Shown: piece after piece, positions 9,387-63,959 of the stretch
Layout of the letters: every line of letters starts with the position of its first letter
How positions within the stretch are numbered: position 1 is the first letter of the stretch
NCBI RefSeq assembly: GCF_014207985.1
Contig: NZ_JACHMI010000001.1
Location: 8,787,001-8,851,000 of the forward strand
Source: Nonomuraea rubra
GTDB lineage: Bacteria > Actinomycetota > Actinomycetes > Streptosporangiales > Streptosporangiaceae
Direction: 5' to 3'
Length of the DNA stretch: 64,000 bases
Notes under the pieces: generated by a model
Databases searched by the model: none
Told to the model about the DNA's origin: nothing
The model's input: the letters and a program-made list of their open reading frames with translations, nothing else
Translations under genes and position numbers: made by a program

Positions 9387-9394
9387 GAGGAACA

Positions 9395-9839: not shown

Positions 9840-9853
9840 AACGAGGAGTAAGC

Positions 9854-11119: not shown

Positions 11120-11141
11120 CCTGCCCCACAATGTGCATAAT

Positions 11142-12957: not shown

Positions 12958-12964
12958 CTGGCCC

Positions 12965-13810
12965 TCATCCATTCGCTGTCGCCGGGTCGAGCACCGTGCG
13001 CACCCGGTCGCCGAGCCGCGCGAAGCTGAGCACAAGCAGCAGGAGCGCGATACCGGGGAACACCGCGAGCCACCACATCCCACTGGAGATGTGCGGCATT
13101 CCTTCCGACAGGAGAATGCCGACCGCCGGCGTCTGCGGCGAGAACCCGAACCCGAGGAACGTGAGCGCGGCCTCGTGCAGGATAACGTGCGGGAACATGA
13201 GAACGAATCCCACCAGGAGTTGAGGTAGGACGAGCGGCAGGACGTGCTTCCATGCGATGAAGAGCACTGACCTGCCGAGTCCACGTGAGACGAGGATGAA
13301 CTCCGAGCTGCGGATCTGCTTCACATCGGCCCTGACCAGCAGCGCGAGCGACATCCAGTGGGTGAACGCGATGCCGAGCACGATGCCCGGGATCCCGCCT
13401 CCGACGGTGAAGGCGAGCAGGATCATGAAGATCAGGTGCGGGATGCCGATGGAGAGGTCGATGAGCCACGAGATGAAGCCGTCGACCCGCTTGCCGAGGA
13501 GCGCGGCACCGATGCCGAGCACCGCGGAGATCACCGTGCTGATCGCAGCTGTCAGCACGCCGATCCCCAAGGAGAGCGCGAGCCCCTTCACCACTCGCGT
13601 GAAGAGATCCCGGCCCAGGTGATCGGTGCCGAACGGGTGCTCGAAGCTTGGCGGCAACAGCCGCGGCGCGGAGTTCGGCCGCAACGAGGCGTCATTCAGG
13701 AAGAAATAGCCTGCGATCACGCAGGTGGTAAGGAGCGCCACGACGGAGAGCGAGACGACGACGTCCCGGCGTCCGCGCAACTGCGGAGGGTGATCGGCCG
13801 ACATACTCAT
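12965..13810 (-). CDS. Opp/Nik-type ABC transporter permease, DppC-like
   Basis: A 281-residue permease with a short N-terminal membrane segment and LLPPSFEHPFGTDHLGRDLF, the DppC-type block (PFGTDxxGRD). The later region carries the EAA-like loop (ILVSRGLGRSVLFIAWKHVL) and the conserved EAALTFLGFGFSPQTPAVG stretch. It overlaps the upstream permease by 4 bases and ends 8 bases before the next ATPase. Confidence 0.9.
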   Translation of the reverse strand: MSMSADHPPQLRGRRDVVVSLSVVALLTTCVIAGYFFLNDASLRPNSAPRLLPPSFEHPFGTDHLGRDLFTRVVKGLALSLGIGVLTAAISTVISAVLGIGAALLGKRVDGFISWLIDLSIGIPHLIFMILLAFTVGGGIPGIVLGIAFTHWMSLALLVRADVKQIRSSEFILVSRGLGRSVLFIAWKHVLPLVLPQLLVGFVLMFPHVILHEAALTFLGFGFSPQTPAVGILLSEGMPHISSGMWWLAVFPGIALLLLVLSFARLGDRVRTVLDPATANG

Positions 13811-14775
13811 GCTCTCCTCCGGACCCGCGGGTCGATCGCGGCGTTGATGACGTCCGCGATCATGTTTCCGGTGAAGACGAACACCGCGCTGACCAGCACG
13901 ATGCCCAGGAGCAACGGAACGTCGCCGCCGAGCGCGGCCTCGGTCAGGGTGGAGCCGAGCCCCGGATAGGAGAACACCGTTTCGGCGAGCACCGAGCCTC
14001 CGAAGAGTTCTGCGAAGTAGGCGAACTGCAGGGTCACCGCCGGGACGACGGAGTTCCGGAATCCGTGATTGCGGAAGATCTGGGCGTCGGTCTCGCCCCT
14101 GGCACGGGCGAACGCCACATACTCACTGTTCAGGACATCCGTCATCTTCTCCCGGGTGTGCATGGCGATGTTCGCGACGCCGATCGCGGAGAGGGTGAGG
14201 GCCGGGAGCACGAAATGGTGGATCCGCTGAGCGAACGTGACCTCGGCCGCCGGGACACCCTGCGGCCCTGCGAGCCCCACGGGGAACCAGCCGAGCCATA
14301 CGGAGAAGACGACGAGGAAGACGATGCCGAGCCAGAAGGCGGGCGTGGCGGACAGGGTGTAGCTGTACCACGAGATGACCCGGTCAGCGAGCCGCCCGCG
14401 ACGCATCGCCGCGGCCGCCCCGAGCAGGTATCCGAGGACCCCGGACATGGTCCATGCGACCCCCATGAGCGCGAGCGACGCACCGAAGCGGGCTCCCATG
14501 ACATCGATCACGGGAGCCTTGTAGAGCGTCGACACGCCGAAGTCGCCCTGGATCATCTCGCGAGCCCAGGCGAGGTACTGCTCCACCGGTGAGCGATCCA
14601 GGCCCCAGTGCTCGCGAAGCTTCGCCAGTTGCTCCTCCGTGAGGTCCACGTCGGTGCCGATGTACGCCTGGATCGGATCGATGGGCGAGTTGTAGACCAG
14701 GGTGAAGGCGAGCACCGACACCCCGACCAGCAGGGTCGCCAGGCGCAGCGCACGCAGCAGGATCAATCTCAGCAT
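13807..14775 (-). CDS. Opp/Nik-type ABC transporter permease, DppB-like
   Basis: A 322-residue six-helix permease. The N-terminus MLRLILLRALRLATLLVGVS matches DppB/NikB proteins, and the EAA-like loop NSEYVAFARARGETDAQIFR sits before helix 5. The ATG at 14775 gives the family N-terminus; earlier in-frame starts at 14784 (GTG) and 14796 (ATG) cannot be excluded, and none has a strong ribosome site. It lies 32 bases after the binding protein gene. Confidence 0.88.
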   Translation of the reverse strand: MLRLILLRALRLATLLVGVSVLAFTLVYNSPIDPIQAYIGTDVDLTEEQLAKLREHWGLDRSPVEQYLAWAREMIQGDFGVSTLYKAPVIDVMGARFGASLALMGVAWTMSGVLGYLLGAAAAMRRGRLADRVISWYSYTLSATPAFWLGIVFLVVFSVWLGWFPVGLAGPQGVPAAEVTFAQRIHHFVLPALTLSAIGVANIAMHTREKMTDVLNSEYVAFARARGETDAQIFRNHGFRNSVVPAVTLQFAYFAELFGGSVLAETVFSYPGLGSTLTEAALGGDVPLLLGIVLVSAVFVFTGNMIADVINAAIDPRVRRRA

Positions 14776-14807
14776 GACAGGCACCGCCCCGGCCATCCCG
14801 TGGGCAT

Positions 14808-16481
14808 TCAGTCCTTCCAGTGCCACTGGACCAGGCTGTTGAACAGCGCCCACTCGTGGCCGTGCCCGTGGATCGGCTGGTCGCCGAGGCTCAGCCCGTC
14901 ACGGACGAAGTAGAGGTGGTCGATCCGGACCAGCCAGATGATCGGCGCGTCCCCGGCCTCCCCGGCGAAGCCGGTTTCCCCGTCCCACTGTGCTCGCTTC
15001 CAGTGCTTGTTCGCCTCGTCCTGGGTGGCGGCGGACAGAGCACGGTCGAGATGAGCGTCGACCGTCGAGTTGGAGTACTGCGGCATGTTGTTGTAGCCGG
15101 TGTCGATGCCCTTCGACGAGTACATCGAGTGCAGCTGGTGTGCGTGGTGCCGCCCGCCGCCCCAGGTCACGGCGTTCGCCTTGCCGTCAAGGTAGATGCC
15201 GTCCCATGTGCTGCCCTTGGTGGTGATCTCGATGCCGAGCGTGCGCGCCTGCTCCGCCACCACCAGGGCCAGGTCGCTGCGGAGCTTGTCGTCCGAGGGG
15301 TACATCAGGGTGAACTGGGCCTTGCGGCCGTCTTTCTCCACGATTCCGTCACCGTCGGAGTCGCGCCAGCCGGCCTCGGCGAGGATGCGCTTCGCGTCCT
15401 CGGCCCGGCCGTCCTCGAACACCGCCTCCTCGTTGAACCACGGGAGGCTGTCAACGAGGGTGTAGGCCGGGCGGCCGTGTCCCTGCAGCACGATCTTGGT
15501 GATCTCTTCGCGATCGAAGCCGATGTTCAGTGCCTTGCGGATCGCCGGGTCCGCGGTCACGTCGTTGCCGACCGAGACGTCGTTGCCCTGGATCTTCCCC
15601 CGGTTGCCGGCCGGGAGCGTTGGCAGGGACAGGCCGCGGGAGTCGATGCTTTCGAAGCTCTGCAGTGTCATGCCGGCGATTCTCTGGTCGGCGAAGGTCG
15701 GAGGGACGTAGGCGATGTCGACCGATCCCGCCCTCGCGGCGGCGAGCGCGGCGTCCTCGCCGAGGAAGAGGAAGGTGAGCTTGGTGAACTGCGGCCGCTG
15801 GCCGTACCAGTGAGGATTCGCCTTGAGGATGAGCTGCTGCCCCTGCTGGTAGTCGGCCACGGTGTACGGACCGGACCCGATGGGGTTGCGCGAGTAATTC
15901 GTGTCGTAGTGCTTGGCGGGCAGGATCGGGATCTCCGAGAGCTGGCTGACGAAGGTCGATCGCGGCGTCTTCAGATGGAAGGTGACCTGGGTCTCGCCGG
16001 CGGCGACGATCCGATCGACGAACGTCAGGTCGAAACGCGTGCCGTCCTTCTTCAGCGTCTCGTAGGTGAAGACCACGTCCTGCGCGGTAACCGGCTCGCC
16101 GTTCGACCAGCGGGCGCCGTCCCGGATCGTGAAGCTCCAGGACATGGCGTCGTCACTCACGGAGTACTTCGAGGCCAGGTCGCCGACGAAGTTGACGTCC
16201 TTGTCGATGGTGAGCAACGAGCTGTGGATCAGCCGGATCTGTGCCGGCCTGGAACCCCAGCCTTTCAACGGATCGAACTCGCCCCCGGCGACGTCCCCGA
16301 CAGCGACGACGAGTTCGCTGCCGCGACTCTTCGCCTCGCTGGGGGATGACGTGCTCCGGTCTCCCCGGCCCCAGCCGGTCGCAACACCAACGGTCACTCC
16401 TAGGACCACGACCAGCGCGGCTGCTGCGGCGATCCACATGCGCCGGCCCTTGCGGGGGGCGACTTCCTCATCTTGCGGCAA
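14808..16481 (-). CDS. Family 5 extracellular solute-binding protein (peptide/metal-chelate type)
   Basis: A 557-residue receptor of the importer. The mature region has the SBP family 5 pattern: LIHSSLLTID, WSFTIRDGARWSNGEPVTAQ and DVVFTYETL at about residues 100-150. The N-terminus is a hydrophobic segment (residues 15-37) followed by a Ser-rich region, but no lipobox cysteine is present, so it would be held by an uncleaved membrane anchor rather than a lipid, which is unusual for a Gram-positive receptor. It heads the operon, and a Zur-box-like core lies 77 bases upstream. This points to import of a zinc-metallophore complex rather than a nutrient peptide. Confidence 0.88.
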   Translation of the reverse strand: MPQDEEVAPRKGRRMWIAAAAALVVVLGVTVGVATGWGRGDRSTSSPSEAKSRGSELVVAVGDVAGGEFDPLKGWGSRPAQIRLIHSSLLTIDKDVNFVGDLASKYSVSDDAMSWSFTIRDGARWSNGEPVTAQDVVFTYETLKKDGTRFDLTFVDRIVAAGETQVTFHLKTPRSTFVSQLSEIPILPAKHYDTNYSRNPIGSGPYTVADYQQGQQLILKANPHWYGQRPQFTKLTFLFLGEDAALAAARAGSVDIAYVPPTFADQRIAGMTLQSFESIDSRGLSLPTLPAGNRGKIQGNDVSVGNDVTADPAIRKALNIGFDREEITKIVLQGHGRPAYTLVDSLPWFNEEAVFEDGRAEDAKRILAEAGWRDSDGDGIVEKDGRKAQFTLMYPSDDKLRSDLALVVAEQARTLGIEITTKGSTWDGIYLDGKANAVTWGGGRHHAHQLHSMYSSKGIDTGYNNMPQYSNSTVDAHLDRALSAATQDEANKHWKRAQWDGETGFAGEAGDAPIIWLVRIDHLYFVRDGLSLGDQPIHGHGHEWALFNSLVQWHWKD

Positions 16482-16551
16482 GGGAACAACCTCGGTTTCT
16501 GACGGCCATCACAAAGGGGATCGTTGCCGCCAAACGGACAACGGCGATAAC

Positions 16552-16570
16552 CATACTGATAATCATTGTC
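16552..16570. promoter_or_regulatory. Probable Zur box upstream of the Opp-type importer
   Basis: CATACTGATAATCATTGTC contains the core GATAATCATTGTC, one base different from the core at the Fur-family promoter (GATAACCATTGTC). A second GATAACCAT half-repeat lies immediately before it (16546-16554). It lies about 70 bases upstream of the solute-binding protein start. Confidence 0.72.
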
Positions 16571-16602
16571 GCTCCTCAAATCTTGACTCATCCGGTCTGC
16601 AC

Positions 16603-16905
16603 TCATCTGAGCTGACTCTGCTCCGCACGAGCCGGTCTGCGCGGATGCGGGTTGGCCGACCGCTTCATCCGCTGGAGGGCCAAGAGAAGTGCCCCGGCGA
16701 GCACGGCGAGACCTGCGGTGATCACGACGTCGCGCATGCCGGTGTCGTACAAGCCGCGAAAGGTCATCGGGTCCGCACCGGCACGGCTGTGGGAGAGGAT
16801 CGTGCCGAGTATGGCTATGCCCAGCGCGCTGCCTGCTTGGCGTGCGGTGTTCACCGTGGCGGAGACGATGCCCGACCTTTGGCGAGGAACCTGTCCCGCT
16901 CGAAA
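16603..16905 (-). pseudogene. DHA2-type MFS transporter, C-terminal fragment
   Basis: The minus strand reads RQRSGIVSATVNTARQAGSA and then LGIAILGTILSHS, the conserved block near helix 11-12 of DHA2-family drug exporters, followed by a last helix and a basic tail. Everything N-terminal to this (about 400 residues) is missing. The breakpoint near 16905 abuts transposase debris, so a rearrangement removed the gene body. Confidence 0.75.
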
Positions 16906-49864: not shown

Positions 49865-52032
49865 GGAGCCGTCAAGAAATAAGGCGTTGCTTTTCGATCT
49901 TGAACTCGTTGGCCTGGTATGGGCATACCGGACGAAGTCCGCGATCAGCTTTCCTTGCGGTTCAGGGTGCTGTTTCCGCATTTGAACGAGCGGCAGCGGC
50001 GTCTGGTGATGGGCCAGGAGGCTCGGCTGCTCGGACATGGTGGGGTGCGGGCGGTGGCGGCAGTGGCCAGAGTGTCCGAAACGACGGTCCGTGCCGGCGT
50101 GTTCGAGCTGGAGGCCGGTGAGGATCCGCTGCCGGATGGCCGTGTCCGTCGTCGTGGTGGCGGTCGCAAGACGGCTGAAGCTCAGGACCCGGATCTGGTG
50201 CTGGCACTGCTGGCGCTGGTGGAGCCGGATGAGCGCGGGGATCCGGCCTCGCCGCTGCGCTGGACTACCAGGTCGCTGCGTGATCTGGCCCAGGAACTGA
50301 CCCGGCAGGGCCGTCCGGTCTCGGCTCCGACGGTGGGCCGGCTGTTGAAGGACCAAGGCTTCAGTTTGCAGGCCAATGCCAAGACGCTGGAAGGCAAGCA
50401 GCATCCGGACCGGGACGCGCAATTTCGTTACATCAACGAGCAGGTCAAGGCTCATCAGGCGGACGGTGAGCCGGTGATCAGCGTGGACACGAAGAAGAAG
50501 GAGTATCTGGGCGATCTGCCGAACCCCGGCCGACAATGGAGGCCCAAGGGCGACCCGGTCCGGGTTGAGGACCACAGCTTCTTCTTCACCGGTCCGCACG
50601 TGCCGCACGCGATCCCGTACGGAATCTACGACATGGCCCGCAACACGGGCTGGGTGAACGTCGGGATCGACCACGACACCTCGGCGTTCGCGGTGGAATC
50701 GATCCGGCGCTGGTGGCGCGGCCGCGGCAGCCTGGACTACCCGAACGCGAACCGGCTGCTCATCACGGCGGACTGCGGAGGCTCCAACAGCTATCGCTTC
50801 CGGTTATGGAAGGCCGAGCTGGCTGGCTTCGCCGCCGAGACCGGGCTGACGGTGACCGTCTGCCACTTCCCGCCGAGCACCAGCAAGTGGAACAAGATAG
50901 AGCACCGGCTGTTCTCGCACATCACCATGAACTGGCGCGGCAGGCCGCTGACCAGCCACGAGGTCGTGGTCAACAGCATCGCCGCGACCCGCACCCACAC
51001 CGGGCTGACCGTCACGGCCGAACTGGACACCAACGCCTACCCGCTGGGCGTGTCGGTGTCGGCCGAGCGGATGAGCATGCTGCCCATCGTCCCGCATACC
51101 GAGCGCGGCGCCTGGAACTACACAATCAGCCCGGCAGACGGCCACCCGCCCCTGTCCCCATGCGATGACCAGGCGCGCATCCGGTCCGAAAGCCTGCATG
51201 CTCTGGCCGATCCCCGGCTGACTGGGATGAGCCGCCAGGAGCTGAACGAGCTGGCCGCATGCCTGGCTCCGGGTCAGGCGGCCCTGGCCGAGCAGCGCAA
51301 CTTCGAAATCCGTGGTGGCCCACGCCGGCAGGCCAAGGCTAACCACGGACGCCCCCTGCTCACCGACGCCGACAAGACCCTGATCGCCATTGTCTATCTC
51401 CGCCAGATCTGCTCCCAGCGCGTCCTGTCGGAGATGCTCGAGATCAGCCAGCCGCCGATCGGTCAGGCGATCACCGAGACCGGCAAGCTCCTGGCCGCCC
51501 GCAAACTCACGATCAAGCCCACCGTGCTGCGCTTCACCAGCGCCGGTGCGCTGCGCGACTTCCTGGACAGCAACACCGTCCCGGCACGGCCGAACCGGCT
51601 GGCGCTGCTCGCCGATCCGGCACTGACCGGGATGAGCCGCCCGGAACTGGCCGCGCTGACCGAGCGCCTGTCGCTGCGGCAGGCCGCCGAGGCCGAGCAG
51701 CGCAAGCATCGCCAGCGCGGCGGTGACCGGCAGGCCAGCGCTCGTGGAGGCATCTTCCAGGAGAAGATCACCGACGCCGAGCGCGTCCTGGCGGTCATCC
51801 TTGGCATGCGCAAGGTCTGCACCTGGCAAGTCGTGGCCGAGCTGTTTCAGGTGAGCCGGCGAACCATCGGAAACGCGCAGATCTGGGTCCGCCCGCTGCT
51901 GGAGGAGACCGACTACACCGTCACCCGAGCCGCAACCCGCTACTCCAGCGCCGACGCGCTCCTGAACGCCCTCACACCACACGACGACAACCCAGCAGTC
52001 ACAGAATCGACACCTTGATTTTTTACGGCTCC
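49865..52032 (+). mobile_element. ISAzo13-type insertion sequence (2168 bp)
   Basis: Terminal inverted repeats begin GGAGCCGT on both ends (left GGAGCCGTCAAGAAAT, right complement GGAGCCGTAAAAAATC). It is flanked by a 3-base AGT duplication (49862-49864 and 52033-52035). It carries a single transposase gene. The intact ends and open reading frame suggest a recent insertion. Confidence 0.85.
49919..52018 (+). CDS. ISAzo13-family transposase with duplicated C-terminal extension
   Basis: A 699-residue transposase. The first 400 residues are ISAzo13-like: RTVSAPTVGRLLKDQGFSLQ-like text (PVSAPTVGRLLKDQGFSLQA) and catalytic acidic residues in VISVDTKKKEYLG, LLITADCGGSNSYRF and STSKWNKIEHRLFS. Two further modules follow. 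One starts at TGMSRQELNELAACLAPGQA (about residue 435), the second at TGMSRPELAALTERLSLRQA (about residue 570), each with a helix-turn-helix-like stretch (LEISQPPIGQAI; FQVSRRTIGNAQ). Family members I know are shorter, so the extension is unusual. Confidence 0.88.
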   Translation: MGIPDEVRDQLSLRFRVLFPHLNERQRRLVMGQEARLLGHGGVRAVAAVARVSETTVRAGVFELEAGEDPLPDGRVRRRGGGRKTAEAQDPDLVLALLALVEPDERGDPASPLRWTTRSLRDLAQELTRQGRPVSAPTVGRLLKDQGFSLQANAKTLEGKQHPDRDAQFRYINEQVKAHQADGEPVISVDTKKKEYLGDLPNPGRQWRPKGDPVRVEDHSFFFTGPHVPHAIPYGIYDMARNTGWVNVGIDHDTSAFAVESIRRWWRGRGSLDYPNANRLLITADCGGSNSYRFRLWKAELAGFAAETGLTVTVCHFPPSTSKWNKIEHRLFSHITMNWRGRPLTSHEVVVNSIAATRTHTGLTVTAELDTNAYPLGVSVSAERMSMLPIVPHTERGAWNYTISPADGHPPLSPCDDQARIRSESLHALADPRLTGMSRQELNELAACLAPGQAALAEQRNFEIRGGPRRQAKANHGRPLLTDADKTLIAIVYLRQICSQRVLSEMLEISQPPIGQAITETGKLLAARKLTIKPTVLRFTSAGALRDFLDSNTVPARPNRLALLADPALTGMSRPELAALTERLSLRQAAEAEQRKHRQRGGDRQASARGGIFQEKITDAERVLAVILGMRKVCTWQVVAELFQVSRRTIGNAQIWVRPLLEETDYTVTRAATRYSSADALLNALTPHDDNPAVTESTP

Positions 52033-52804
52033 AGTGGGTGCGGCAGCGCTGCCAGCACGCGCCCGGCAGGGCGGCGCCGATCGCCTCGACCAGGCCGCGG
52101 TGCGCGTCGGAGATGACCAGCTGCACCCCGGACAGGCCGCGGGCGACCAGGCCGCGCAGGAACGCCAGCCAACCGGCGCCGTCCTCGGCCGAGGTGACCT
52201 CCAGGCCGAGCACCTCGCGCTGGCCGTTGGCGTTGACGCCGGTGGCCACCAGCGCGTGCACGTTGATCGTGCGGCCGCCCTCACGCACCTTCTGGGTCAA
52301 GGCGTCGATCCAGACGAAGGTGTACGGGCCGGCGTCCAGGGCGCGTGTGCGGAAGGCTTCGACCTGCTCATCCAGCACCTTGGCCATCTGCGAGACCTGG
52401 CTCTTGGAGATGTGCTTGATGCCGAGCTGCTCGACCAGCTTGTCCACCCGCCGGGTGGAGACGCCGAGCAGGTAGCTGGTGGCCACCACGCTGATCAGCG
52501 CCTGCTCGGCCCGCCGCCGTCGCTCCAGCAGCCAGTCCGGGTAGTACGAGCCCGAGCGCAGCTTCGGAATCGCCAGCTCGATCGTGCCCGCCCGGGTGTC
52601 CCACTCGCGCGCCCGGTAGCCGTTACGGGAGTTGGTCCGCTCGTCGCTGCGCTGCCCGTAGGCGGCCCCGCACAGGCTGTCGGCCTCGGCCGACATCAAC
52701 GTCTCGGCCATGGTCTTCACCATGGATCGCAACAGATCCGGGTCACCGGTCTCGATCTGCTGCGCCAGCCACCGCTCAGGCGACACACTGTTGTCCGCGG
52801 TCAT
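52033..52804 (-). pseudogene. IS256 transposase, N-terminal half
   Basis: Begins MTADNSVSPERWLAQQIETG and contains SRNGYRAREWDTRAGTIELA, VSTRRVDKLVEQLGIKHISK and the first DDE part FVWIDALTQKVREGG followed by LVISDAHRGLVEAIGAALPG. Cut at CRTH by the inner element. The ATG is at 52804. Confidence 0.92.
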
Positions 52805-55381: not shown

Positions 55382-56674
55382 TCACGTCCAAGCCATGACC
55401 AGCTGGGTGTGACGCTTGGGGAAGACCCGGCCGATAGCCGGCGCCGGCACGGTGGCGTCGATCGGGTGCAGGGTGAAGTCCGGGTCCGGGTGCTGGCGCC
55501 AGTCGCGGTCCCAGGTCACCACCTCGTCGGCGAGCTGCCGGGCCAGGGCGTCGCCGTGCTTGCCGTAGCCGTGGACGCCGAGCTCGTAGCGGCGTTCCCC
55601 GCTCTCGCCGTCCCGCCGCTCCGGGCCCATGGTGAGGTAGGCGAAGCTGTCCGGGGTGATCAGTGCGGGGGTGAACCAGCGCATGGCGGGCTCGATGCGG
55701 TCGCTGCCGCGCTGCGGGTCGGCCCAGATCACGCCGAAGGTCTCGGTCTGGGCCGCGACCCACAGGTGAAGGGTGTCGAAGGGATCGTTGTGGCCGACCG
55801 TGACGCCGGTCCAGCGTTCGGTGCGGTCGCCGTCCAGCGCTCGGTCGAGCGCCGCGGTGTCGAGGTCGGGGCCGGCGTCGATGAGCAGGTTCACCGTCCC
55901 GCCGGCCAGGGCCGCCACGTGCTCCTGGTGGGCGCCCGCGCCCTGGATGGGGATGAACCCGCACACCGTGGGGTCGAGGCCGGCGAAGTGGTCGCCGTCG
56001 CGGACGAAGGTGAAGGAGCGGGTGAGCCCGCAGAAGCGCAGCGGGACGATCATTCGGCCGCCGGGCGCCAGCAGGTGGCCCCAGGGGCAGTCCCACGCGC
56101 CGATCGTGACGAGGATGACGTCGAACGGCCCCAGCTCGTCGGCAGCATGCTCGGCGTCCCCGAGCACCACCTTCACCTGCGGGTAGCCGCTCTCGGCGAG
56201 GAAGCGGGTGGCGCGGTCGGTGACGAACGGGTCGATGTCCACGCTGATCACCAGCCCGTCCGGGCCGACGAGCTCGGCGATGAGCGCCGCGTTGTAGCCG
56301 CCGCTGCCGATCTCCAACACCCGCATCCCGTGCTGCAGGCGGGCTGCTTCGAGCATCTCGGCCTGTAGCCAGGGGGCGCTGATCGAGCTGGTGGCCTTGC
56401 CATCGGCGTTGCGCCTGGTGACCACGGTGTCGCGGGTGGAGTAGGCGGCGGAGACGGGCGCTTCGGGAGCGAACTTCTCGCGGGGCACCTTGGCGAAGGC
56501 GGCGGCGATCTCGGATGAGCGGATGGCGCCGCGCTCTCGCAGCTCGGCGACCATCGCGTCGCGGAGGAATTCGGGGGACTCAACTGATGACGGATTGTCA
56601 GATGGCACTTGCTCTATGTTAGCGAGCTTGGCTGTGCGGCCCTGCGTGTCGTCGTTCTCGCAACTACTGAACAT
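55382..56674 (-). CDS. FxLD-type methyltransferase (PCMT-like)
   Basis: A 430-residue protein. Residues about 40-240 are a protein-L-isoaspartate methyltransferase-like domain: IAAAFAKVPREKFAPEAPVS, MRVLEIGSGGYNAALIAELV (motif I) and GPFDVILVTIGAWDCPWGHL. The C-terminal 190 residues are an extra domain ending GRVFPKRHTQLVMAWT. This architecture matches the methyltransferases named for the FxLD system, which are associated with modified peptides. No lanthipeptide precursor, dehydratase or cyclase gene was found in the window. The start could also be the GTG at 56608. Confidence 0.8.
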   Translation of the reverse strand: MFSSCENDDTQGRTAKLANIEQVPSDNPSSVESPEFLRDAMVAELRERGAIRSSEIAAAFAKVPREKFAPEAPVSAAYSTRDTVVTRRNADGKATSSISAPWLQAEMLEAARLQHGMRVLEIGSGGYNAALIAELVGPDGLVISVDIDPFVTDRATRFLAESGYPQVKVVLGDAEHAADELGPFDVILVTIGAWDCPWGHLLAPGGRMIVPLRFCGLTRSFTFVRDGDHFAGLDPTVCGFIPIQGAGAHQEHVAALAGGTVNLLIDAGPDLDTAALDRALDGDRTERWTGVTVGHNDPFDTLHLWVAAQTETFGVIWADPQRGSDRIEPAMRWFTPALITPDSFAYLTMGPERRDGESGERRYELGVHGYGKHGDALARQLADEVVTWDRDWRQHPDPDFTLHPIDATVPAPAIGRVFPKRHTQLVMAWT

Positions 56675-56706
56675 GCTGGGTCATCGCAGTCAGGCCAGCT
56701 CGTCCG

Positions 56707-57075
56707 CTAGGCACTGTTCTCGATGTGTTCGAAGATGTCGGCATCGGTCTCGCGCTGCCACTCGGGAAGCTCGTCCCAGTCGGCCACGTAAGACGGCTTG
56801 GGGTTGTCGATGTGCTTATGGATCTGGGTGATCCAGCACAAAGCGACGAATCTGCCCTTCTGCTCGCGGGTCAGCTTGGCCGTATGGCCGGCGCTGATCT
56901 CGACGAAGGAACGCACTTGACTGCAGACAGCGGCGGCGGCCTGGCGTTCCCACTCGGGTGTCTCCTCCCACGGGGTGATGTAGGAGGGCTTGGGCTCTCC
57001 CGGGAAGTGCTTGTGCACTCCCGCGATCCAGGCCTCGCGGAAGATGCGGCCCTGCTCGTCCGTCGTGCTCTGCAT
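56707..57075 (-). CDS. Tandem RyR-like domain protein
   Basis: A 122-residue protein made of two related halves. IAGVHKHFPGEPKPSYITPW then EETPEWERQ (residues 17-45) corresponds to ITQIHKHIDNPKPSYVADWD then ELPEWQRE (residues 82-109). The W-x-ELPEWQRE pattern resembles RyR domains. Function is unknown; such domains are thought to bind ligands or proteins. It lies between the methyltransferase and the XRE regulator on the same strand, 32 bases from the upstream gene. Confidence 0.7.
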   Translation of the reverse strand: MQSTTDEQGRIFREAWIAGVHKHFPGEPKPSYITPWEETPEWERQAAAAVCSQVRSFVEISAGHTAKLTREQKGRFVALCWITQIHKHIDNPKPSYVADWDELPEWQRETDADIFEHIENSA

Positions 57076-57091
57076 CGTGATCCTGATCCTC

Positions 57092-58399
57092 TCAGTGTGG
57101 GGCGGGGGCCGACAGGTGGGCGATGCGGTCGTTCAGCTGTACCACCCGGCTGTCGGAGAGAAGGGGCTGGAGCTGCTGTTGGATGCCGTGCAGTTTCCTG
57201 CCGACGTAGCCCGCGGATTGGGTCTGCTCGGCCAGGTCCACGGCGTCGCCGGCGAAGTGCAGGAACTGGTCCAGGTCACGGCGCTGGAGGCCGAGGGCTG
57301 CGAGGTCGGTGAGGAGGCTCCCCCGGCGCCGGAGCGAGGTGGCTTGATCGAGAGCGGCGAGGAGTGAGGCCTCGGCCGCATCGGCCCGGCCGAGAGTCAG
57401 GTAGCAGGTACCACGTTGATCAGCCAGGCGAGAGCCGTCGAAGCGGAGCCACCCTCCAGGACTGGCGGGATCGGCGAGATCAAGGACTTCGTCCGCGACG
57501 GCGAGAGCACGTTCGCATGCCGCCTGGTCGCCGTGTCCGGCGTGGGCCTCAGCATGCACGGCGGCGACCCAGTGCCGTGTGGACAGTCGGCTGTCACCCC
57601 GCTGGGCGATGCGTGCGGCCGCGGACAGCACCGCGGTGGCCTGGGGATACTCATGCTCGTACAGGTTGACGAACGCCTGCCGGGTGAGAGCGCAGGCCCA
57701 GCGGTCGTAGCAGCGAGCTTCGCGACCGGCGCTGACGGCCATGGTGTAGCAGTAGGCGGCGTCGGTGTAGCGGTTGCTGTCGAAGCAGATCTCTCCCGCG
57801 AGCTGGAAAAGATCACAGGCCACCACGCACAGTTGCTGGCGGGCTCGCGCTGAATGAGCCTGGTCCAGGTGCTTGACCAGGAGCTTGAGCTGGTCATGGA
57901 CCAGCGGATAGACCAGCCGTTTCGACTTGGACAAGGCGAAGACCTGCCAGAGGTGGCCGCTGAGCAGCACGTGCTGCTCGACGTCGTCGGCCTCGTCGGA
58001 TGGGCCGACCCATTCCTGGACGTCGGCGTTGGCCGGCTGGGGAAGCACCATGAGCGTGCCGGCGATGCTCAGCAGGCGGAGAAGTTCACGACGGTACATG
58101 TCGTCACCTTCACCCGTCAGCGGGGCTTCAGTCACGACCCTGCCGATGACGACCGGGGTTGAGGTGGCGACGGACGCTTGCGGGTGTTCCTCACGAAGGG
58201 CGAGGAGGTCATCTAGTTCGTCCGGGGTGACCTTCAGCAGGTCGCACATCTTGGGCCGGATGTAGGGGCAGGGCTCGGTCTTGCCCAGTTCCCACCGTCC
58301 GGCCGTGGTGCGGTCGATGCCAAGCTGGTCGGCGAAGAATTCCTGGCTGTAGCCGAGCGCCTTCCTCCGTTCGGCAAGGCGCCTGCGTTTGGCCGCCAA
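57092..58399 (-). CDS. XRE-family regulator with TPR-like sensor domain
   Basis: A 435-residue regulator. The helix-turn-helix is LGYSQEFFADQLGIDRTTAG then RWELGKTEP (about residues 15-43). The rest is TPR-rich (FQLAGEICFDSNRYTDAAYC, YEHEYPQATAVLSAAARIA, YLTLGRADAAEASLLAALDQ). The start is a TTG at 58399 with GGAGG six bases ahead, giving the normal N-terminus. It is divergent to the folE-queD-queE cluster, and a perfect 22-bp palindrome lies between. It is therefore the probable controller of that cluster and of itself. Confidence 0.88.
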   Translation of the reverse strand: MAAKRRRLAERRKALGYSQEFFADQLGIDRTTAGRWELGKTEPCPYIRPKMCDLLKVTPDELDDLLALREEHPQASVATSTPVVIGRVVTEAPLTGEGDDMYRRELLRLLSIAGTLMVLPQPANADVQEWVGPSDEADDVEQHVLLSGHLWQVFALSKSKRLVYPLVHDQLKLLVKHLDQAHSARARQQLCVVACDLFQLAGEICFDSNRYTDAAYCYTMAVSAGREARCYDRWACALTRQAFVNLYEHEYPQATAVLSAAARIAQRGDSRLSTRHWVAAVHAEAHAGHGDQAACERALAVADEVLDLADPASPGGWLRFDGSRLADQRGTCYLTLGRADAAEASLLAALDQATSLRRRGSLLTDLAALGLQRRDLDQFLHFAGDAVDLAEQTQSAGYVGRKLHGIQQQLQPLLSDSRVVQLNDRIAHLSAPAPH

Positions 58400-58475
58400 G
58401 GCGCACCTCCGCCCGCGTCGTTCCGTCAAGTGCAGCGTACGGCACATGCACGATCACCGGCTGCGATGCCGCAAA

Positions 58476-58570: not shown

Positions 58571-59197
58571 GTGCTCATCGCACACCCCGAAAACCATCGC
58601 CTGCCCGCGACCTTCATCCCAGGATCGCCAGGCATCGACGTCGCAGCAGCCGAACAGGCCGCCGCAGCCCTTCTCACGGCCATCGGCGTGAGCGACGGCA
58701 GTGAGGCCGCCGACCGGACACCGGCTCGGATGGTGGCCGGGCTGGCCGAACTGCTCAACTGCCCGGCTTGGGAGTTCACCACCTTCCCCAACCGGGAAGG
58801 GCAGCACGAGCTGGTGCTGGCGCGCGACGTGCCGTTCACCTCGCTGTGTGCGCACCATCTGCTTCCGTTCTCAGGGGTCGCGCACGTCGGCGTGCTGCCC
58901 GCTGCTCGGATCGCCGGTCTGTCGAAGCTGGCCCGGGCCGTGGAGGCCTTCGCGGCGCGCATGCAGGTACAGGAGGAGCTCGGTCAGCAGATCGCGGCTT
59001 TCCTGGAGGAGCGGCTGGAATGCCGCGGGGTGGGTGTCGTCCTGGCGGCCGAGCATCTGTGCATGACCAGGCGCGGAGTTCGTGCTCAGGGTGCTGAGAC
59101 GGTCACGATCGCCTGCCGAGGTGATCTGCGGGACGATCCCGGCGCTCGCGCGGAGTTCCTGCAACTCGCCGCACCACAGACGCGGAGAGCCGCATGA
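58571..59197 (+). CDS. folE: GTP cyclohydrolase I (FolE)
   Basis: A 208-residue FolE, converting GTP to dihydroneopterin triphosphate, first step of folate and of 7-deazapurine synthesis. The zinc and active-site block is FTSLCAHHLLPFSGVAHVG with Cys93 and the histidine pair; AAEHLCMTRRGVRAQGAETV holds Cys164. The GTG start at 58571 follows GGAGG. The gene overlaps queD by 4 bases, so in this cluster it feeds deazapurine production rather than folate, for which a second copy should exist elsewhere in the genome. Confidence 0.93.
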   Translation: MLIAHPENHRLPATFIPGSPGIDVAAAEQAAAALLTAIGVSDGSEAADRTPARMVAGLAELLNCPAWEFTTFPNREGQHELVLARDVPFTSLCAHHLLPFSGVAHVGVLPAARIAGLSKLARAVEAFAARMQVQEELGQQIAAFLEERLECRGVGVVLAAEHLCMTRRGVRAQGAETVTIACRGDLRDDPGARAEFLQLAAPQTRRAA

Positions 59198-59565
59198 CCT
59201 TCCGTATCGGCAAGCGATTCACCTTCGAGGCCGCCCACCAGCTGGCCGGCCTGCCCGAGGGACACAAGTGCGGCCGCCTGCATGGCCACTCCTACACCGT
59301 CGAGGTGGTGGTGACGGCCACCGAGCTGACCGGTCCCGGCTTCGTCGCCGACTTCGCCGACCTCGCTCCGGTCAAGCAGCATCTGGCTGAGCACTTCGAC
59401 CACCAAGCGCTCAACACCGGTCTCGACGTGGAGCCGACCAGCGAGAACCTCGCTCGATGCCTGTTCGAGTGGTGCGCCACGAACCTCCCGCTGCCCACGA
59501 CCGCAGCTCTCGAAGCGGTCCGGGTCAGCGAAACGCCCGCCACCTGGGCCGAATACCGACCCTGA
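59194..59565 (+). CDS. queD: 6-carboxytetrahydropterin synthase (QueD)
   Basis: A 123-residue QueD/PTPS-family enzyme. It has FEAAHQL with His15 and HKCGRLHGHSYTVEVVV with the catalytic Cys26 and metal-binding His30 and His32. VADFADL and FDHQALN follow, and PTSENLARCLFEW near the end. It converts dihydroneopterin triphosphate into 6-carboxy-5,6,7,8-tetrahydropterin. Translation is coupled to folE (ATGA overlap). The next gene is 58 bases downstream. Confidence 0.94.
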   Translation: MTFRIGKRFTFEAAHQLAGLPEGHKCGRLHGHSYTVEVVVTATELTGPGFVADFADLAPVKQHLAEHFDHQALNTGLDVEPTSENLARCLFEWCATNLPLPTTAALEAVRVSETPATWAEYRP

Positions 59566-59623
59566 CCCAGGGGCTTCCCCCCGGACGCGTAACCCGCATC
59601 TCGATCCCACCGAGAGGAAACCC

Positions 59624-60427
59624 ATGTCCGCCGACCTGCTGCCGATCGCCATCCCGACCGGACAGCGGCCCGCTCCGATCGCCGAACTGTTCTACTCCTT
59701 CCAGGGCGAAGGAGTGAACCTCGGCCGTCGCGCCCTCTTCGTCCGCTTCCTGGGCTGCAACCTGACCTGCGGCTACACCGACGCGCCGACCAGCCGTCAC
59801 AGTCCAGCGCAAGGCTCGATGCTGTGCGACACCGAATACACCTGGAACAGCGCCAAGCACGACCTCTCCGCAGGTGCACGACATTTGACACCACAGGCGA
59901 TCTGGGACGAGCTGATCCAACTCGACCCCACCACGGCCGACCCGACCCTCCCCCCGATCGACCTGATCGTCATCACCGGCGGGGAACCGCTCCTCCACAA
60001 AGACGCCGTCCTGCACCTCGCGCACCAGGCCCGGCTTGCCGACCGGCACGTCGAGATCGAGACGAACGCGACGATCAAGCCCGGCCCCGACCTGGTCGCC
60101 GCGGGCGTGGCCTTCAACGCCGGCCTCAAACTCGCCAGCTCCGCGGTGCCGCGCAAGAAGCGCATCAAACCGGACGCTATCAGGCAGCTCGAAGCAAGCG
60201 GCCGAGCCAGATGGAAGTTCGTCGTCAGCACTGTGGACGACCTGGCGGAGGTCGCCACACTTCAGGCTGAGTTCGGGCTCACCGAGATCTGGCTGAGCCC
60301 CGAGGGCACCACCCCCGAGCGCGTGATGGAGCACATGCGCATGGCCGCGGCCCCCGCGCTTCAGCACGGCTGGAACCTGACCACCCGTGAGCACGTGCTG
60401 ATCTGGGGCGGTCAGCGTGCCAGGTAG
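59624..60427 (+). CDS. queE: 7-carboxy-7-deazaguanine synthase (QueE), unusual cysteine spacing
   Basis: A 267-residue radical SAM enzyme. LFYSFQGEGVNLGRRALFVR and FLGCNLTCGY are standard for QueE, as are IVITGGEPLLHKDAV and HVEIETNATIKP. The cluster loop is not: Cys45 and Cys49 are in the normal C-x3-C, but the third cysteine (Cys68, in CDTEYTW) is 18 residues further, not 2, so about 16 residues are inserted. The remainder matches QueE. It should make 7-carboxy-7-deazaguanine. Overlaps the TGT-like gene by 11 bases. Confidence 0.88.
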   Translation: MSADLLPIAIPTGQRPAPIAELFYSFQGEGVNLGRRALFVRFLGCNLTCGYTDAPTSRHSPAQGSMLCDTEYTWNSAKHDLSAGARHLTPQAIWDELIQLDPTTADPTLPPIDLIVITGGEPLLHKDAVLHLAHQARLADRHVEIETNATIKPGPDLVAAGVAFNAGLKLASSAVPRKKRIKPDAIRQLEASGRARWKFVVSTVDDLAEVATLQAEFGLTEIWLSPEGTTPERVMEHMRMAAAPALQHGWNLTTREHVLIWGGQRAR

Positions 60428-61250
60428 CCGCACCCCGTTGCACGGCATCAGCTTCTCCGTCATCGCTCCCGCCGCCTATCTGCGGGAGTTCGTCGCTCAG
60501 ACGCCCGCCACGGTCCACCACGTGGCGGCCCAGCGCGTCCTGCTCGATCCGGCCTACCGGGCGTTCTTCCTCGAAGAGGAACGCCGCGGCGCCACGATCA
60601 TCCTCGACAACGGCGTCTTCGACCTGGGCCAGTCGCTCAAGCCGTGCGAGCTCCTCCGAGCCGCCCGAGCGGTGAACGCCGCAGAGATCATCCTGCCGGA
60701 TGTCATCGGTGACGCCTCCGCCACCATGCGCGCCAGCGACCTGGCGGCGGCACAGATCCTCGACCTGAGCGAAAAGTTCCGGCTGTGCGCGGTCGTCCAG
60801 GCCGCCACCGACGAGGACTGGCACCGCTGCTACGACCACTTCATCACGCGCGACTACGTCGGCGCGATCGCCTTCCCCGCCTCCCGTGGCAAGGAGCCAA
60901 GCCGCGCGCTTTCCAAGAACCGCCTCACCGCAACAGAGCACCTCGAAGCCCACGGCATGGTCGACCCCGGACGGATCTACCGGCTGCTGGGCCTGGGCCG
61001 GACCGGTCATCTGGAGCTCTTCGAACAACGCCGGCACGAATGGATCAGCTCGGTCGACGCCGCCGCGCCGGTCCTGCTCGGCGCCATGGGCATCCGCATG
61101 CTGCCCGACGGACCCTACGAGAAGATCCGGACTCCGCGCGTCGAGACCGTGCAACACATCGAACCGGGCCGGTTCTCATTGATCAAAGACAACATCAAGG
61201 CCGTCCGGTACGCCACCGGCTGCCCCATCGAGATCCGGACACCCACATGA
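60417..61250 (+). CDS. TGT/DpdA-like TIM-barrel protein
   Basis: A 277-residue protein with similarity in layout to the tRNA-guanine transglycosylase superfamily and the DNA-modifying DpdA proteins. GATIILDNGVFDLGQSLKPC is in the position of the catalytic-acid loop, AAEIILPDVIGDASATM follows as the second acidic region, and GAIAFPASRGKEPSRA is a later loop. No C-x-C-x2-C zinc site is visible, and the protein is shorter than bacterial TGT. It starts with GTG inside queE and ends ATGA-overlapped with the next gene. It may exchange a base in nucleic acid for a 7-deazapurine, or use another acceptor. Confidence 0.7.
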   Translation: MPGSRTPLHGISFSVIAPAAYLREFVAQTPATVHHVAAQRVLLDPAYRAFFLEEERRGATIILDNGVFDLGQSLKPCELLRAARAVNAAEIILPDVIGDASATMRASDLAAAQILDLSEKFRLCAVVQAATDEDWHRCYDHFITRDYVGAIAFPASRGKEPSRALSKNRLTATEHLEAHGMVDPGRIYRLLGLGRTGHLELFEQRRHEWISSVDAAAPVLLGAMGIRMLPDGPYEKIRTPRVETVQHIEPGRFSLIKDNIKAVRYATGCPIEIRTPT

Positions 61251-62347
61251 CGAGCCCGACACTCATCGATCACGCGTCCGAGCAAAGGGCTCTCGCAGCA
61301 TCCCCCATCGACTTCTACCGGCACACCATGAACACTGCGAGCCTGCTGCGCTACCTCAAGATCAAGGTCCATCACCTGATCCAGGACTACGACTGGGCCC
61401 GCATCTCGGTCGTCGCCGGCTACGACCGCCACTGCCTGATCTCAGCCCACGAGAAGAACGACAAGCTGTTCAACTGGCAACGCCCCACCGCACAAGTCCA
61501 AGGCACCCACCTGATCATCAAGTGCTTCCCCGGCGTGGACTACGTCCACCACTACGCCCTCATCATCGCGACCTACCTGAACATGGTCGGCCGCTACCGC
61601 GGCCAAGTCGACTACACGCTCCCCTCCGAACACACCTGCCGGGCCGCCGTCGACCGGCTGGACATCGACGCCTCGGCAGACGACCTCATCGTCGTCGGCT
61701 GGGGCCTCGAACGGTTCGCCAACGCCACCACCTGGACCCACGGCCCCGGCCACGCCTGGCAACGCACCAACGTCGACGGACGGCGCGTGCTCTACCTCGG
61801 CTACCTGCACAGCATCTGGGGCGACGTGGCCGGCCGCGTCGTAGCCCGCCTGGCCGCCCTGGGCGCCCGCCGCATCGTCTACGTCGGCAAGGTCGGCTCT
61901 CTCGACCCGCACATCGCACCGAACACCTGCCTGGCCACCGGCCACACCAGCGTCCTGCCCGACGGCCGCGTGACCTGGCCGGACTTCTTCGGCGACCTCG
62001 CCGCAGGCCAACCGGACGTCCGCTCCGGCACCCACGTCACCTCGCCCTCCATCCTGTTCGAGGACACCAACTGGCTGGCCCGCCAGCACGGCCACCACTT
62101 CGTCGACCCGGAGATCGGCCACATGGGACGCGCCGCCCACACCTCCGGCATCGAGTTCGGCTATCTCCACGTCGTCTCCAACAACCTGGCCCGCCCCTAT
62201 CCCGCCGACCTGTCCAACGAACGACTTCCCACCGTCATCGAACAGCGGGCCGTCCTCCTCGACCGCATCCACGAGATCATCCGGCTCCGGCTACGGAGCA
62301 TGCCCACGACACGAACCAGCGAAGGAACCAACGCGTGCACATCCTGA
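61247..62347 (+). CDS. Nucleoside phosphorylase-like protein
   Basis: A 366-residue protein of uncertain type. The segment RIVYVGKVGSLDPHIAPNTC then LATG resembles the base-binding loop of the nucleoside phosphorylase/nucleosidase family, and DPEIGHMGRAAHTSGIEFGY then LHVVSNNLA resembles the ME-x-A ribose-binding and late strand region. It would add or remove a sugar from a base, which fits the step after QueE. ATG start at 61247, coupled to the TGT-like gene. The N-terminal 130 residues have no clear family match. Confidence 0.58.
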   Translation: MTSPTLIDHASEQRALAASPIDFYRHTMNTASLLRYLKIKVHHLIQDYDWARISVVAGYDRHCLISAHEKNDKLFNWQRPTAQVQGTHLIIKCFPGVDYVHHYALIIATYLNMVGRYRGQVDYTLPSEHTCRAAVDRLDIDASADDLIVVGWGLERFANATTWTHGPGHAWQRTNVDGRRVLYLGYLHSIWGDVAGRVVARLAALGARRIVYVGKVGSLDPHIAPNTCLATGHTSVLPDGRVTWPDFFGDLAAGQPDVRSGTHVTSPSILFEDTNWLARQHGHHFVDPEIGHMGRAAHTSGIEFGYLHVVSNNLARPYPADLSNERLPTVIEQRAVLLDRIHEIIRLRLRSMPTTRTSEGTNACTS

Positions 62348-63024
62348 CCGGCGCACCCGGCAAGCTCATCACGGTGACCGGCATCGACGGCGCCGGCAAA
62401 TCAACGCTGGCCGCCGCCCTCCACACGGCGCTCAAGGACGCCAACAAGAACGCGATCCTCGTCGGCAAGCACACCACCGAGGTCCCGATGAGCGCCGAGC
62501 TATCCGCCTACGTGGACAGCGTCAACACGGTCGTCTACCGCCGCGATCCGACCGTGGGCGCCGCCTGCGGCAATCACTACTGGCTCTGCGCTCTGGCCGC
62601 CTGGTACGCCCTCCAGGACCGGCTGATCATCCAGCCTGCCCTGCGAGCGGGGGTCCACGTCATCCTCGACAATGCCCACCACAAGATCCTCGCCCGCTAC
62701 GCCGTCTGTCCCGACGTCCCCACCGACCTGGCCCGCCAGCTCTTCGCCCGCCTCACCCCGCCCGACCTCATCCTGTTCCTCCGCATCAGTGCCGATGAGG
62801 CCCTACGCCGACGCAACGGCGACTTCACCGCCCTGGAGGCAGGCCGCATCGGCTCCACCAGCGAGGCGTTCGTCTCCTACCAAACGGACGTCACCGAGGA
62901 ACTGCGCCGGCAGGCGACCGATGCGACCTGGGCATCCATGGACGTCACTCACAAGGACGCGGACGCCGTCCTGGCCGAGACGATCACGCTACTGTCCGAA
63001 CGCCTCGACATCCAGATTCCCTGA
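62335..63024 (+). CDS. dTMP-kinase-like nucleotide kinase
   Basis: A 229-residue P-loop kinase. VTGIDGAGKSTLAAALH (about residues 15-31) is a thymidylate-kinase-type Walker A. DNAHHKILARYAVC is where the DRY/DRH motif is normally found. PDLILFLRISADEALRRRNG is the lid-associated block. It is co-transcribed and overlaps the previous gene by 13 bases. Its position suggests that it phosphorylates a modified nucleoside or nucleotide made by the cluster; a housekeeping Tmk should be elsewhere. Confidence 0.82.
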   Translation: MHILTGAPGKLITVTGIDGAGKSTLAAALHTALKDANKNAILVGKHTTEVPMSAELSAYVDSVNTVVYRRDPTVGAACGNHYWLCALAAWYALQDRLIIQPALRAGVHVILDNAHHKILARYAVCPDVPTDLARQLFARLTPPDLILFLRISADEALRRRNGDFTALEAGRIGSTSEAFVSYQTDVTEELRRQATDATWASMDVTHKDADAVLAETITLLSERLDIQIP

Positions 63025-63038
63025 ATCAGGAAGGCCGC

Positions 63039-63959
63039 ATGCAGCTCGAACCCGACCGGCGATACCTGTGGCACGGCGTCACCTGGGCCACCGGCAGGCC
63101 CACCCTTCTCCTGGCGGACACCACGACCGGCACCCTCGGGCAGATCGAGGTCGTCGGGCGGCACCTGGGGCTGAAGGTGGTCGACTCGGCCCGATTCTGC
63201 ACCAGCCGCTACGCCTTCACCGACACCGTCCATGTCGTGCCCCTGTCCTGCCCGCAGCAGGCCCTCGCCGAGCGCGGCGGCCAATGCGCCAACTGCCTGG
63301 AGCGGGACGACTTCCGTTTCGCCCACCAGATCCACCAGGGCGGTCACACCCCACCAGCCCTCGCCGCTTACATGGCTCAACCCCACTGGCTCTACATCGC
63401 CACCTTCGCCAACGCGGTCAGCAAGGTCGGAACGGCGGCGGCCTCCCGTCGCAAGTCCCGGCTGGATGAGCAAGGCCCGATCCGCGCCACCTACCTCGCC
63501 CAGGCACCGGACGGGCGCGCTGTTCGTCACCTGGAAGACGCCCTCAGTCGTGAACTCGGCCTCACCCAGGCCATCCGTGCCACGGCAAAACTCGCGGCGC
63601 TGGTCTCCTTCGATCCCGGCCACGTCGATGACGCACATGCGAAGGCCGTCGACCAGGCGATCACCACGCTGGCCGCCCTCGGGATAGCTTCCGAACGCGA
63701 GGCATGGCTGCCATCGGCCGAGAGCTGTGCCGTGCGTGACCCCCGACGCTCACCAGAACGAGCCCTCTACCCCCATGACCTACGTACCGGCGAGCACGGG
63801 TTCAGCATCGAAGCCTGCTCCGGACCGCACGCCCTGGCACGGCTGTCAGCCGGAGACGAGATCCTCTACGTCCTCGACCTCAACGCGCTCAAGGGGCACC
63901 GCGTCTTGATCGGCAACTACGCCTCGCCACCGACCACCGTCCAAGAATCGCTCTTCTGA
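63039..63959 (+). CDS. DUF2797-family protein
   Basis: A 306-residue protein. QCANCLERDDFRFAHQIHQG, PHWLYIATFANAVSKVGTAA and a later QGPIRATYLAQAPDGRAV match the DUF2797 pattern (Cys pair, then KVG strand and QG motif). Function is unknown. It is the last gene of the cluster and ends 41 bases before the window edge, so more genes of the cluster may follow. Confidence 0.75.
   Translation: MQLEPDRRYLWHGVTWATGRPTLLLADTTTGTLGQIEVVGRHLGLKVVDSARFCTSRYAFTDTVHVVPLSCPQQALAERGGQCANCLERDDFRFAHQIHQGGHTPPALAAYMAQPHWLYIATFANAVSKVGTAAASRRKSRLDEQGPIRATYLAQAPDGRAVRHLEDALSRELGLTQAIRATAKLAALVSFDPGHVDDAHAKAVDQAITTLAALGIASEREAWLPSAESCAVRDPRRSPERALYPHDLRTGEHGFSIEACSGPHALARLSAGDEILYVLDLNALKGHRVLIGNYASPPTTVQESLF

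Follow-up and report, generated by a model that had tools for sequence, protein, structure and literature searches.

A conserved actinomycete operon that starts from 7-carboxy-7-deazaguanine and includes a short, phage-type TGT-fold protein

The window analysed here is a stretch of 64,000 nucleotides from the 12.9 Mb genome of Nonomuraea rubra (contig NZ_JACHMI010000001.1, positions 8787001-8851000), and near its right end seven genes lie on the + strand between 58571 and 63959, overlapping at four of the six junctions (Table 1). They encode GTP cyclohydrolase I (FolE), 6-carboxytetrahydropterin synthase (QueD), 7-carboxy-7-deazaguanine (CDG) synthase (QueE), a protein with the fold of tRNA-guanine transglycosylase (TGT), a purine nucleoside phosphorylase (PNP)-like protein, a thymidylate kinase (TMK)-like protein, and a DUF2797 protein. 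An earlier interpretation made from the letters alone, the sequence-only reading, had taken them for one packed set, which they are, but its gene list was incomplete, as an S-adenosylmethionine (SAM) methyltransferase gene just beyond the window, on the same strand, is the eighth gene of the operon (L001 8021-8833; Methyltransf_25, E 7e-14). The gene that follows encodes a NUDIX enzyme on the opposite strand.

Table 1. Operon genes inside the window, in window positions
Gene or product	Position	Strand	Basis and remarks
folE, GTP cyclohydrolase I	58571..59197	+	PF01227 E 3.5e-51; GTG start; further in-frame GTG at 58430
queD, 6-carboxytetrahydropterin synthase	59194..59565	+	PF01242 E 1.6e-32; TIGR03367 2.4e-25, slightly below its cut-off
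queE, 7-carboxy-7-deazaguanine synthase	59624..60427	+	phrog_2076 E 2.2e-49; TIGR03963 1.1e-21, below cut-off
Short TGT-fold protein, 277 aa	60417..61250	+	AlphaFold2 model and fold searches; D64, D95, D214 kept
PNP-superfamily protein, 366 aa	61247..62347	+	PF01048 in 17/21 alignment members; Asn312
dTMP-kinase-like P-loop kinase, 229 aa	62335..63024	+	PF02223 E 2.7e-8; phrog_761 E 2.6e-9
DUF2797 protein	63039..63959	+	four invariant Cys; possibly GIY-YIG-like centre, residues ~106-225

FolE, QueD, and QueE are thus encoded side by side, and the chemistry as far as CDG is well supported by these three families. The folE of the operon is an extra copy, one of three FolE matches in the genome, and its queD is the sole PTPS match. 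The QueE cysteines C45, C49, and C68 form a CX3CX18C pattern, with an insertion relative to the usual CX3CX2C; the 16 additional residues between cluster cysteines 2 and 3 also occur in L003, L005, and L006, and are not present in the other QueE type of the operon loci. The window genome has no QueC match (TIGR00364; 12 of 14 control genomes match), no tRNA TGT match (PF01702; 14 of 14 control genomes match), and no match to DndB (dpdB) or DUF6884 (dpdC), so that the genome-wide check proposed with the sequence-only reading came out negative for every one of them. The absence of QueC noted there holds for the window genome but not always, given that a strong QueC match turned up in three out of five further genomes with the operon, in G304 as a Gat-QueC fusion within the cluster itself (L040) and in G307 and G308 elsewhere. 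A tRNA TGT match is found in none of the six operon-bearing genomes tested, the window genome and these five.

A PNP-like profile, run once against genome contigs to collect relatives, returned 53 loci, and gene presence was scored by tblastn at E ≤ 1e-5. All eight genes are present at 42 of the 45 actinomycete loci (the window's own counted in), and these 42 all share one order from the TGT-like gene through PNP-like, TMK-like, and DUF2797 to the methyltransferase gene; folE, queD, and queE differ in order and type. The exceptions are two contig ends (L007 and L027) and the Gat-QueC variant L040, which is without folE and the methyltransferase gene. Genes found by tblastn in pieces, namely the kinase of L023, the DUF2797 gene of L032, and the PNP-like genes of L045 and L054, were scored as present, the pieces suggesting a broken or mis-sequenced gene; L023, L032, and L045 belong to the 42. 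That the genes belong together, as had been supposed, is therefore confirmed, and the operon is real and conserved. Its hosts include Nonomuraea, Acrocarpospora, Frankia, Dactylosporangium, Lentzea, Prauserella, Amycolatopsis, Microbispora, Streptomyces, Kitasatospora, Actinokineospora, and others, and the closest named copy examined, that of Nonomuraea cypriaca (L002), encodes eight proteins 88-94% identical to those of N. rubra. Two NUDIX-like gene families, of which one member was scanned, adjoin 30 and 25 loci. The distribution is sporadic: among 296 genomes sampled from the class, the PNP-like gene occurs in four, the window genome included, and in one of the four (G197) it has no deazaguanine neighbours. 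Four Streptomyces plasmid records carry the PNP-like gene, the whole operon being present in both records examined, and one of these operon-bearing plasmids additionally encodes phage capsid and portal proteins. Across the phylum of G297, the PNP-like gene was found in the starting genome only (1/299).

One product to be considered is a secreted nucleoside antibiotic such as cadeguomycin, the CDG ribonucleoside, for which the first three enzymes would supply the required base. One operon host (L021) is a Streptomyces hygroscopicus, a species named as a cadeguomycin producer (PMC6112128), a 2025 review lists cadeguomycin among compounds without an identified gene cluster (PMC12648386), and variant L040 carries a major facilitator superfamily (MFS) transporter gene. 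However, the conserved eight genes include no exporter, nucleoside synthesis needs no TGT fold, and the presence in so many genera suggests a broader function, all of which makes an antibiotic pathway rather improbable.

The fourth protein has the TGT fold and retains the nucleophilic Asp, as judged from the AlphaFold2 model, fold searches, and alignment. It had been described from the sequence as TGT/DpdA-like; the fold bears this out, but the protein is neither Tgt nor a bacterial DpdA, being a short, phage-type TGT. Its profile matches the short TGTs of phages at E 1.4e-28, with phiST as the best fold match to a named phage (TM 0.77), the family profile libraries gave no match to TGT, and sequence searches of solved structures returned nothing for it. 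At 277 aa, it is shorter than the five cellular TGTs compared (371-417 aa), and the invariant residues of its family comprise one Cys only and no zinc set. Against the DpdA of phage 9g, the actinomycete set alone gave no match (E 0.09, local), and the set with phage short TGTs added gave E 1.6e-7 with probability 90 (global). Insertion of CDG into tRNA or other RNA would accord with the fold and with the nucleophile region, which a weak profile alignment pairs with that of tRNA TGT, but the missing family match, the short length, and the lack of a zinc set speak against it, and the kinase and PNP-like partners would be left without explanation. RNA modification is accordingly regarded as very improbable.

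Two correlations with queE bear on the substrate of the operon. The TGT-like gene is present at all 44 loci that have queE and at none of the ten that lack it (L042, L043, L046, L048, L049, L050, L052, L053, L054, and L060; L027, a contig end, was left out), counts that refer to gene neighbourhoods, L060 being scored by reading its genes; an ordinary tRNA TGT lies elsewhere in five of the genomes behind these ten loci (G297, G299, G300, G302, and G303). Thus, of the four downstream families whose co-occurrence with queE had been suggested for checking, the TGT-like family strictly accompanies it, whereas the PNP-like and DUF2797 genes are not tied to it and also occur, in L060 together with a TMK-like gene, without deazaguanine genes alongside.

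The second correlation concerns the PNP-like protein. At E ≤ 0.01, PF01048 is recognized in 17 of the 21 alignment members, the window protein itself falling below the cut-off, and the family keeps the motifs GKVG/GKLG, VDPEIG, [ST]-[ND]-[NS], and ER, so that family profile and active-site motifs both place it in the PNP superfamily; a sequence search of solved structures gave only weak uridine phosphorylase matches (best E 0.014). Neither the TGT-like nor the phosphorylase-like protein turned out to belong to an unrelated family, which would have spoken against the sequence-only reading. We take Asn312 to be the position of the catalytic Asp in hexameric PNPs, and the motifs presumably correspond to Asp204/Arg217 of E. 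coli PNP. In hexameric PNPs, the catalytic Asp protonates N7 of the purine, and Asn is likewise used by trimeric PNPs. Because a 7-deazaguanine substrate has no N7, Asn would be expected here, and the active site reads S-N-N at 44 of 44 queE loci (the residue of L022 read by eye), in comparison with S/T-D-N or S-D-S at nine of the ten others.

The relatives of the short TGT in phages give a further indication. Campylobacter phages CP220 and CPt10 encode a short TGT, and 2'-deoxy-7-amido-7-deazaguanosine (dADG) is listed for both (PMC8306585), while such phages have been grouped as without DpdA, modified dGTP being mentioned as a proposal (PMC6884629). In phage CP20, a small kinase-like gene (AAA_28) directly adjoins the short TGT, as kinase-like genes also do in phi13:1, BSP7, and MA9V-3; in immuto it is the third gene on, and in StAshley the fifth (annotated as a deoxynucleoside monophosphate kinase). 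The BSP7 kinase and the TMK-like protein of the window fall in the same PHROG, phrog_761, and in variant L040 a guanylate-kinase-like gene (PF00625, 4.6e-7) stands immediately before the TGT-like gene. For viral contigs, the best 80 of 279 short-TGT loci and the best 80 of 541 long-DpdA loci were sampled, and loci with no recovered TGT open reading frame (ORF; 3 of 80 in each set at the shorter ORF length cut-off), redundant loci (at least 70% identity), and loci missing a neighbour were removed, leaving 37 and 19. With a kinase-like gene defined as an ORF of 110-300 aa with a Walker A motif, a small P-loop ORF lies at most two genes away from the TGT at 16 of 37 short-TGT loci versus none of 19 long-DpdA loci (Fisher p 4e-4). 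Of the 18 P-loop ORFs listed near short TGTs, ten were scanned; AAA_28 is matched by eight of them and AAA_18, below the cut-off, by the other two. In 9g and seven other annotated phages with a long DpdA, no kinase is annotated beside DpdA, and two larger uncharacterised neighbours of long DpdA that were scanned had no Pfam match. Separately, a small P-loop gene was seen two ORFs (of at least 100 aa) after the short TGT in L063 (5905-7909) and in 12 viral contigs (L100, L110, L112, L116, L118, L125, L127, L134, L135, L143, L160, and L162); in immuto, the gene between is annotated as a formyltransferase.

On these grounds, we propose that the operon makes a small-molecule CDG nucleotide by base exchange at the nucleotide level, followed by phosphorylation and methylation, a reading to which we assign an even chance. 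FolE, QueD, and QueE would convert GTP to free CDG, as their families are known to do. The short TGT-like enzyme would then swap the guanine of a guanine mononucleotide for CDG through a covalent Asp214 intermediate, by the exchange chemistry that TGT performs on tRNA, the TMK-like kinase would add a phosphate, and the methyltransferase would decorate the product. The PNP-like enzyme, whose active site would no longer be suited to N7 protonation, may form or cleave the N-glycosidic bond of the deaza-nucleoside, and the neighbouring NUDIX enzymes may trim or clear the product, by analogy with TubG of the tubercidin pathway. The sequence-only reading had left CDG to be carried to a nucleoside, a nucleotide, or a position in DNA or RNA; exchange on a mononucleotide with subsequent phosphorylation is favoured over DNA or tRNA because of the kinases near phage short TGTs, the guanylate-kinase-like gene of L040, and the TMK-like gene of the window, the product itself being predicted. 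A supporting precedent is TubE, which joins CDG to ribose phosphate using phosphoribosyl pyrophosphate (PRPP) (PMC6112128).

The main rival is DNA modification, in which the TGT-like protein would be a DpdA placing CDG in DNA, the methyltransferase would modify the mark, and DUF2797 would cut DNA lacking (or bearing) it. CDG has reportedly been found in phage DNA, in a report of 2023. Relatives of the TGT-like protein belong to 7-deazaguanine clusters of phages, in the vicinity of DNA polymerase genes, and one is annotated as DpdA; the centre of DUF2797, possibly GIY-YIG-like, resembles the GIY-YIG domains of Slx1 and, less so, UvrC; the sporadic spread and the Streptomyces plasmids, one with capsid and portal genes, would fit such a system; and the window genome has, 8.7 kb downstream, a gene for an ISP-type restriction methylase. 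However, the window genome lacks DndB and DUF6884 matches, a PNP-like enzyme and a nucleotide kinase fit no evident step of exchange on a polymer, the PNP-like and DUF2797 genes are found apart from deazaguanine genes, and no kinase-like ORF was found near the 19 long DpdA genes. DNA modification is therefore considered unlikely, albeit less so than the antibiotic pathway. As for DUF2797 in the open-access literature, one paper gives a language-model association with peptidase domains, with no experiment.

Several observations weigh against exchange on a mononucleotide. A P-loop ORF is directly adjacent to only 4 of 37 short TGTs versus 0 of 19 long DpdAs, a difference that is not significant (p 0.29), and other genes of the same contigs likewise have a P-loop ORF within two genes more often in the short-TGT set (40/194) than in the long-DpdA set (0/86), so part of the kinase contrast may come from the genes that these phages happen to carry. 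Among the short-TGT relatives, one bears the annotation DNA guanine transglycosylase, and a DUF2797 protein of GIY-YIG type would suggest nucleic acid instead. L042, with no queE alongside, has Asn in its PNP-like protein; the counts for TGT-like genes with queE and for Asn versus Asp ignore shared ancestry, L046, L048, and L049 being near-copies; and queE was sought beside the ten loci, not across their genomes. Finally, the operon has two candidate enzymes for the glycosidic bond, the TGT-like and the PNP-like protein, and the division of labour between them given above is a guess.

Known systems with related chemistry differ from the operon in composition. The huimycin, toyocamycin, and sangivamycin clusters likewise concern 7-deazapurine nucleosides of actinomycetes, but the huimycin cluster is based on 7-cyano-7-deazaguanine (preQ0) and needs QueC. 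The toyocamycin and sangivamycin clusters are also preQ0-based and need QueC (ToyM) (PMC6112128). The nearest described chemistry is that of the tubercidin (tub) cluster of Streptomyces tubercidicus, which shares with the operon the FolE/QueD/QueE-type enzymes, the lack of QueC (among TubA-TubI), a Nudix enzyme, and a gene of a kinase family (PMC6112128). In the same account, tub has a PRPP transferase (TubE), the GMP-reductase-like TubD, the UbiD-type TubF, and the MFS protein TubI, which the operon does not share, whereas the TGT-like, PNP-like, TMK-like, DUF2797, and methyltransferase genes belong to the operon and not to tub; Pfam searches confined to the eight operon genes found no TubE-like phosphoribosyltransferase and no UbiD decarboxylase. 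The dpd genomic islands of bacteria share 7-deazaguanine genes and a TGT-superfamily protein with the operon, but since the latter has a TGT of the short type and its genome no DndB-like dpdB or DUF6884 dpdC match, it is not a dpd island. Type IV CBASS, considered with Qat deazaguanylation, likewise uses CDG outside tRNA, but there the QueC-like Cap9 conjugates CDG to protein (PMC13279940), and the window genome is without a QueC match. The phage clusters with a short TGT (Cellulophaga phi13:1 and phiST, Flavobacterium immuto, Bacillus BSP7, Brevundimonas StAshley, and Campylobacter CP20) share the short TGT family, FolE/QueD/QueE (none seen in the CP20 stretch), and a nearby small P-loop kinase; they differ in having QueC (BSP7 and StAshley), QueF (immuto), and a DNA polymerase gene in the stretch examined (phi13:1, immuto, BSP7, and StAshley). 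Among 50,697 phage records, no PNP-like or DUF2797 relative and one partial TMK-like match were found, and a phage origin of the operon was rejected; when viral contigs were pattern-scanned with the TGT-like profile of the actinomycetes or with the PNP-like profile, no relative was confirmed. The sequence-only reading knew of no described set with exactly the composition of the window genes, and no description of this gene set was recognized among the papers listed in searches of the open-access literature.

Variant and neighbouring loci show some diversity. L040 of Amycolatopsis saalfeldensis (6016-16803) holds genes for Gat-QueC, guanylate-kinase-like, TGT-like, PNP-like, HIT, TMK-like, QueE, QueD, and DUF2797 proteins, continues with PqqD-like, nucleotidyltransferase-like, and MFS transporter genes, and looks like a biosynthetic cluster for another 7-deazaguanine. 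L060 (5401-11251), from the same family, carries PPDK_N-like, 296-aa protein, TMK-like, PNP-like (Asp form), DUF2797, HIT, and APH genes, flanked by genes that by eye resemble those of cobalamin synthesis, with no deazaguanine genes. The PNP-like gene adjoins a CYTH-domain gene in L042 (3594-5218), L046 (219-2793), and L048 (8018-10604), from Komeilibacteria and gut Bacilli/Bacillota metagenome-assembled genomes (MAGs), CYTH being recognized by Pfam in L042 and L046 and by alignment in L048; L046 and L048 also carry DUF2797, and CYTH would be a second kind of partner for the PNP-like gene. A downstream gene of the actinomycete operons (c10, 17 loci) has the motif ELEIKYTL, but with no Pfam match and a negative profile comparison (probability 0.45) it was not assigned to CYTH. 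L049 is labelled an Actinomycetes MAG but, judging by eye from its proteins, looks like almost the same DNA as the gut loci L046 and L048, and a binning error probably explains the label; in L042 and L049, which are contigs of less than 10 kb, missing neighbours carry little weight. Conservon-like genes (a GTPase and partners, by eye) lie upstream of queD in about a dozen Streptomyces/Kitasatospora loci, for example L018 (c12, c16-c18). In the window, the operon is preceded (55382-58447) by genes for an FxLD-system methyltransferase, a 122-aa protein with an internal repeat (c24), and an NsdA-like regulator, the last two families each occurring at eight operon loci; farther upstream (49919-52804), an ISAzo13-type transposase gene (PF07592) overlaps a broken mutator-like transposase gene (by eye) on the opposite strand. 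Downstream of the operon, L001 12165-20000 encodes a large protein with a sub-threshold HEAT-repeat match besides the ISP-type restriction methylase and is possibly a defence region. PADLOC matches to pVip (QueE), VakA (kinase), and mad2 (methyltransferase) were taken as shared superfamily signal.

The operon represents a conserved enzyme set of antibiotic-producing bacteria that starts from CDG, with no QueC among its eight conserved genes. A broader proposal, possible but held with less confidence than exchange on a mononucleotide in the operon, is that the short TGT family as a whole consists of nucleotide-level transglycosylases that swap guanine for a 7-deazaguanine in a mononucleotide; that in phages such as CP220 they would supply modified dGTP to replace dG; that in actinomycetes such an enzyme was captured by an operon making a CDG nucleotide, which would make it the first pathway of cells to reach such a nucleotide through base exchange; and that this operon was built upon an older core of PNP-like and DUF2797 proteins (and a kinase) that in other bacteria acts on an ordinary purine. 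The short TGT is a concrete candidate for a gap that is in print, the dADG of Campylobacter phages without a recognized DpdA (PMC6884629). Given that the short TGT family is common to the operon and the dADG phages, with a kinase-like neighbour in CP20, one type of assay would serve both. If the proposal is true, a TGT acting on mononucleotides would extend the known roles of the TGT fold and could help to make deaza-nucleotides.

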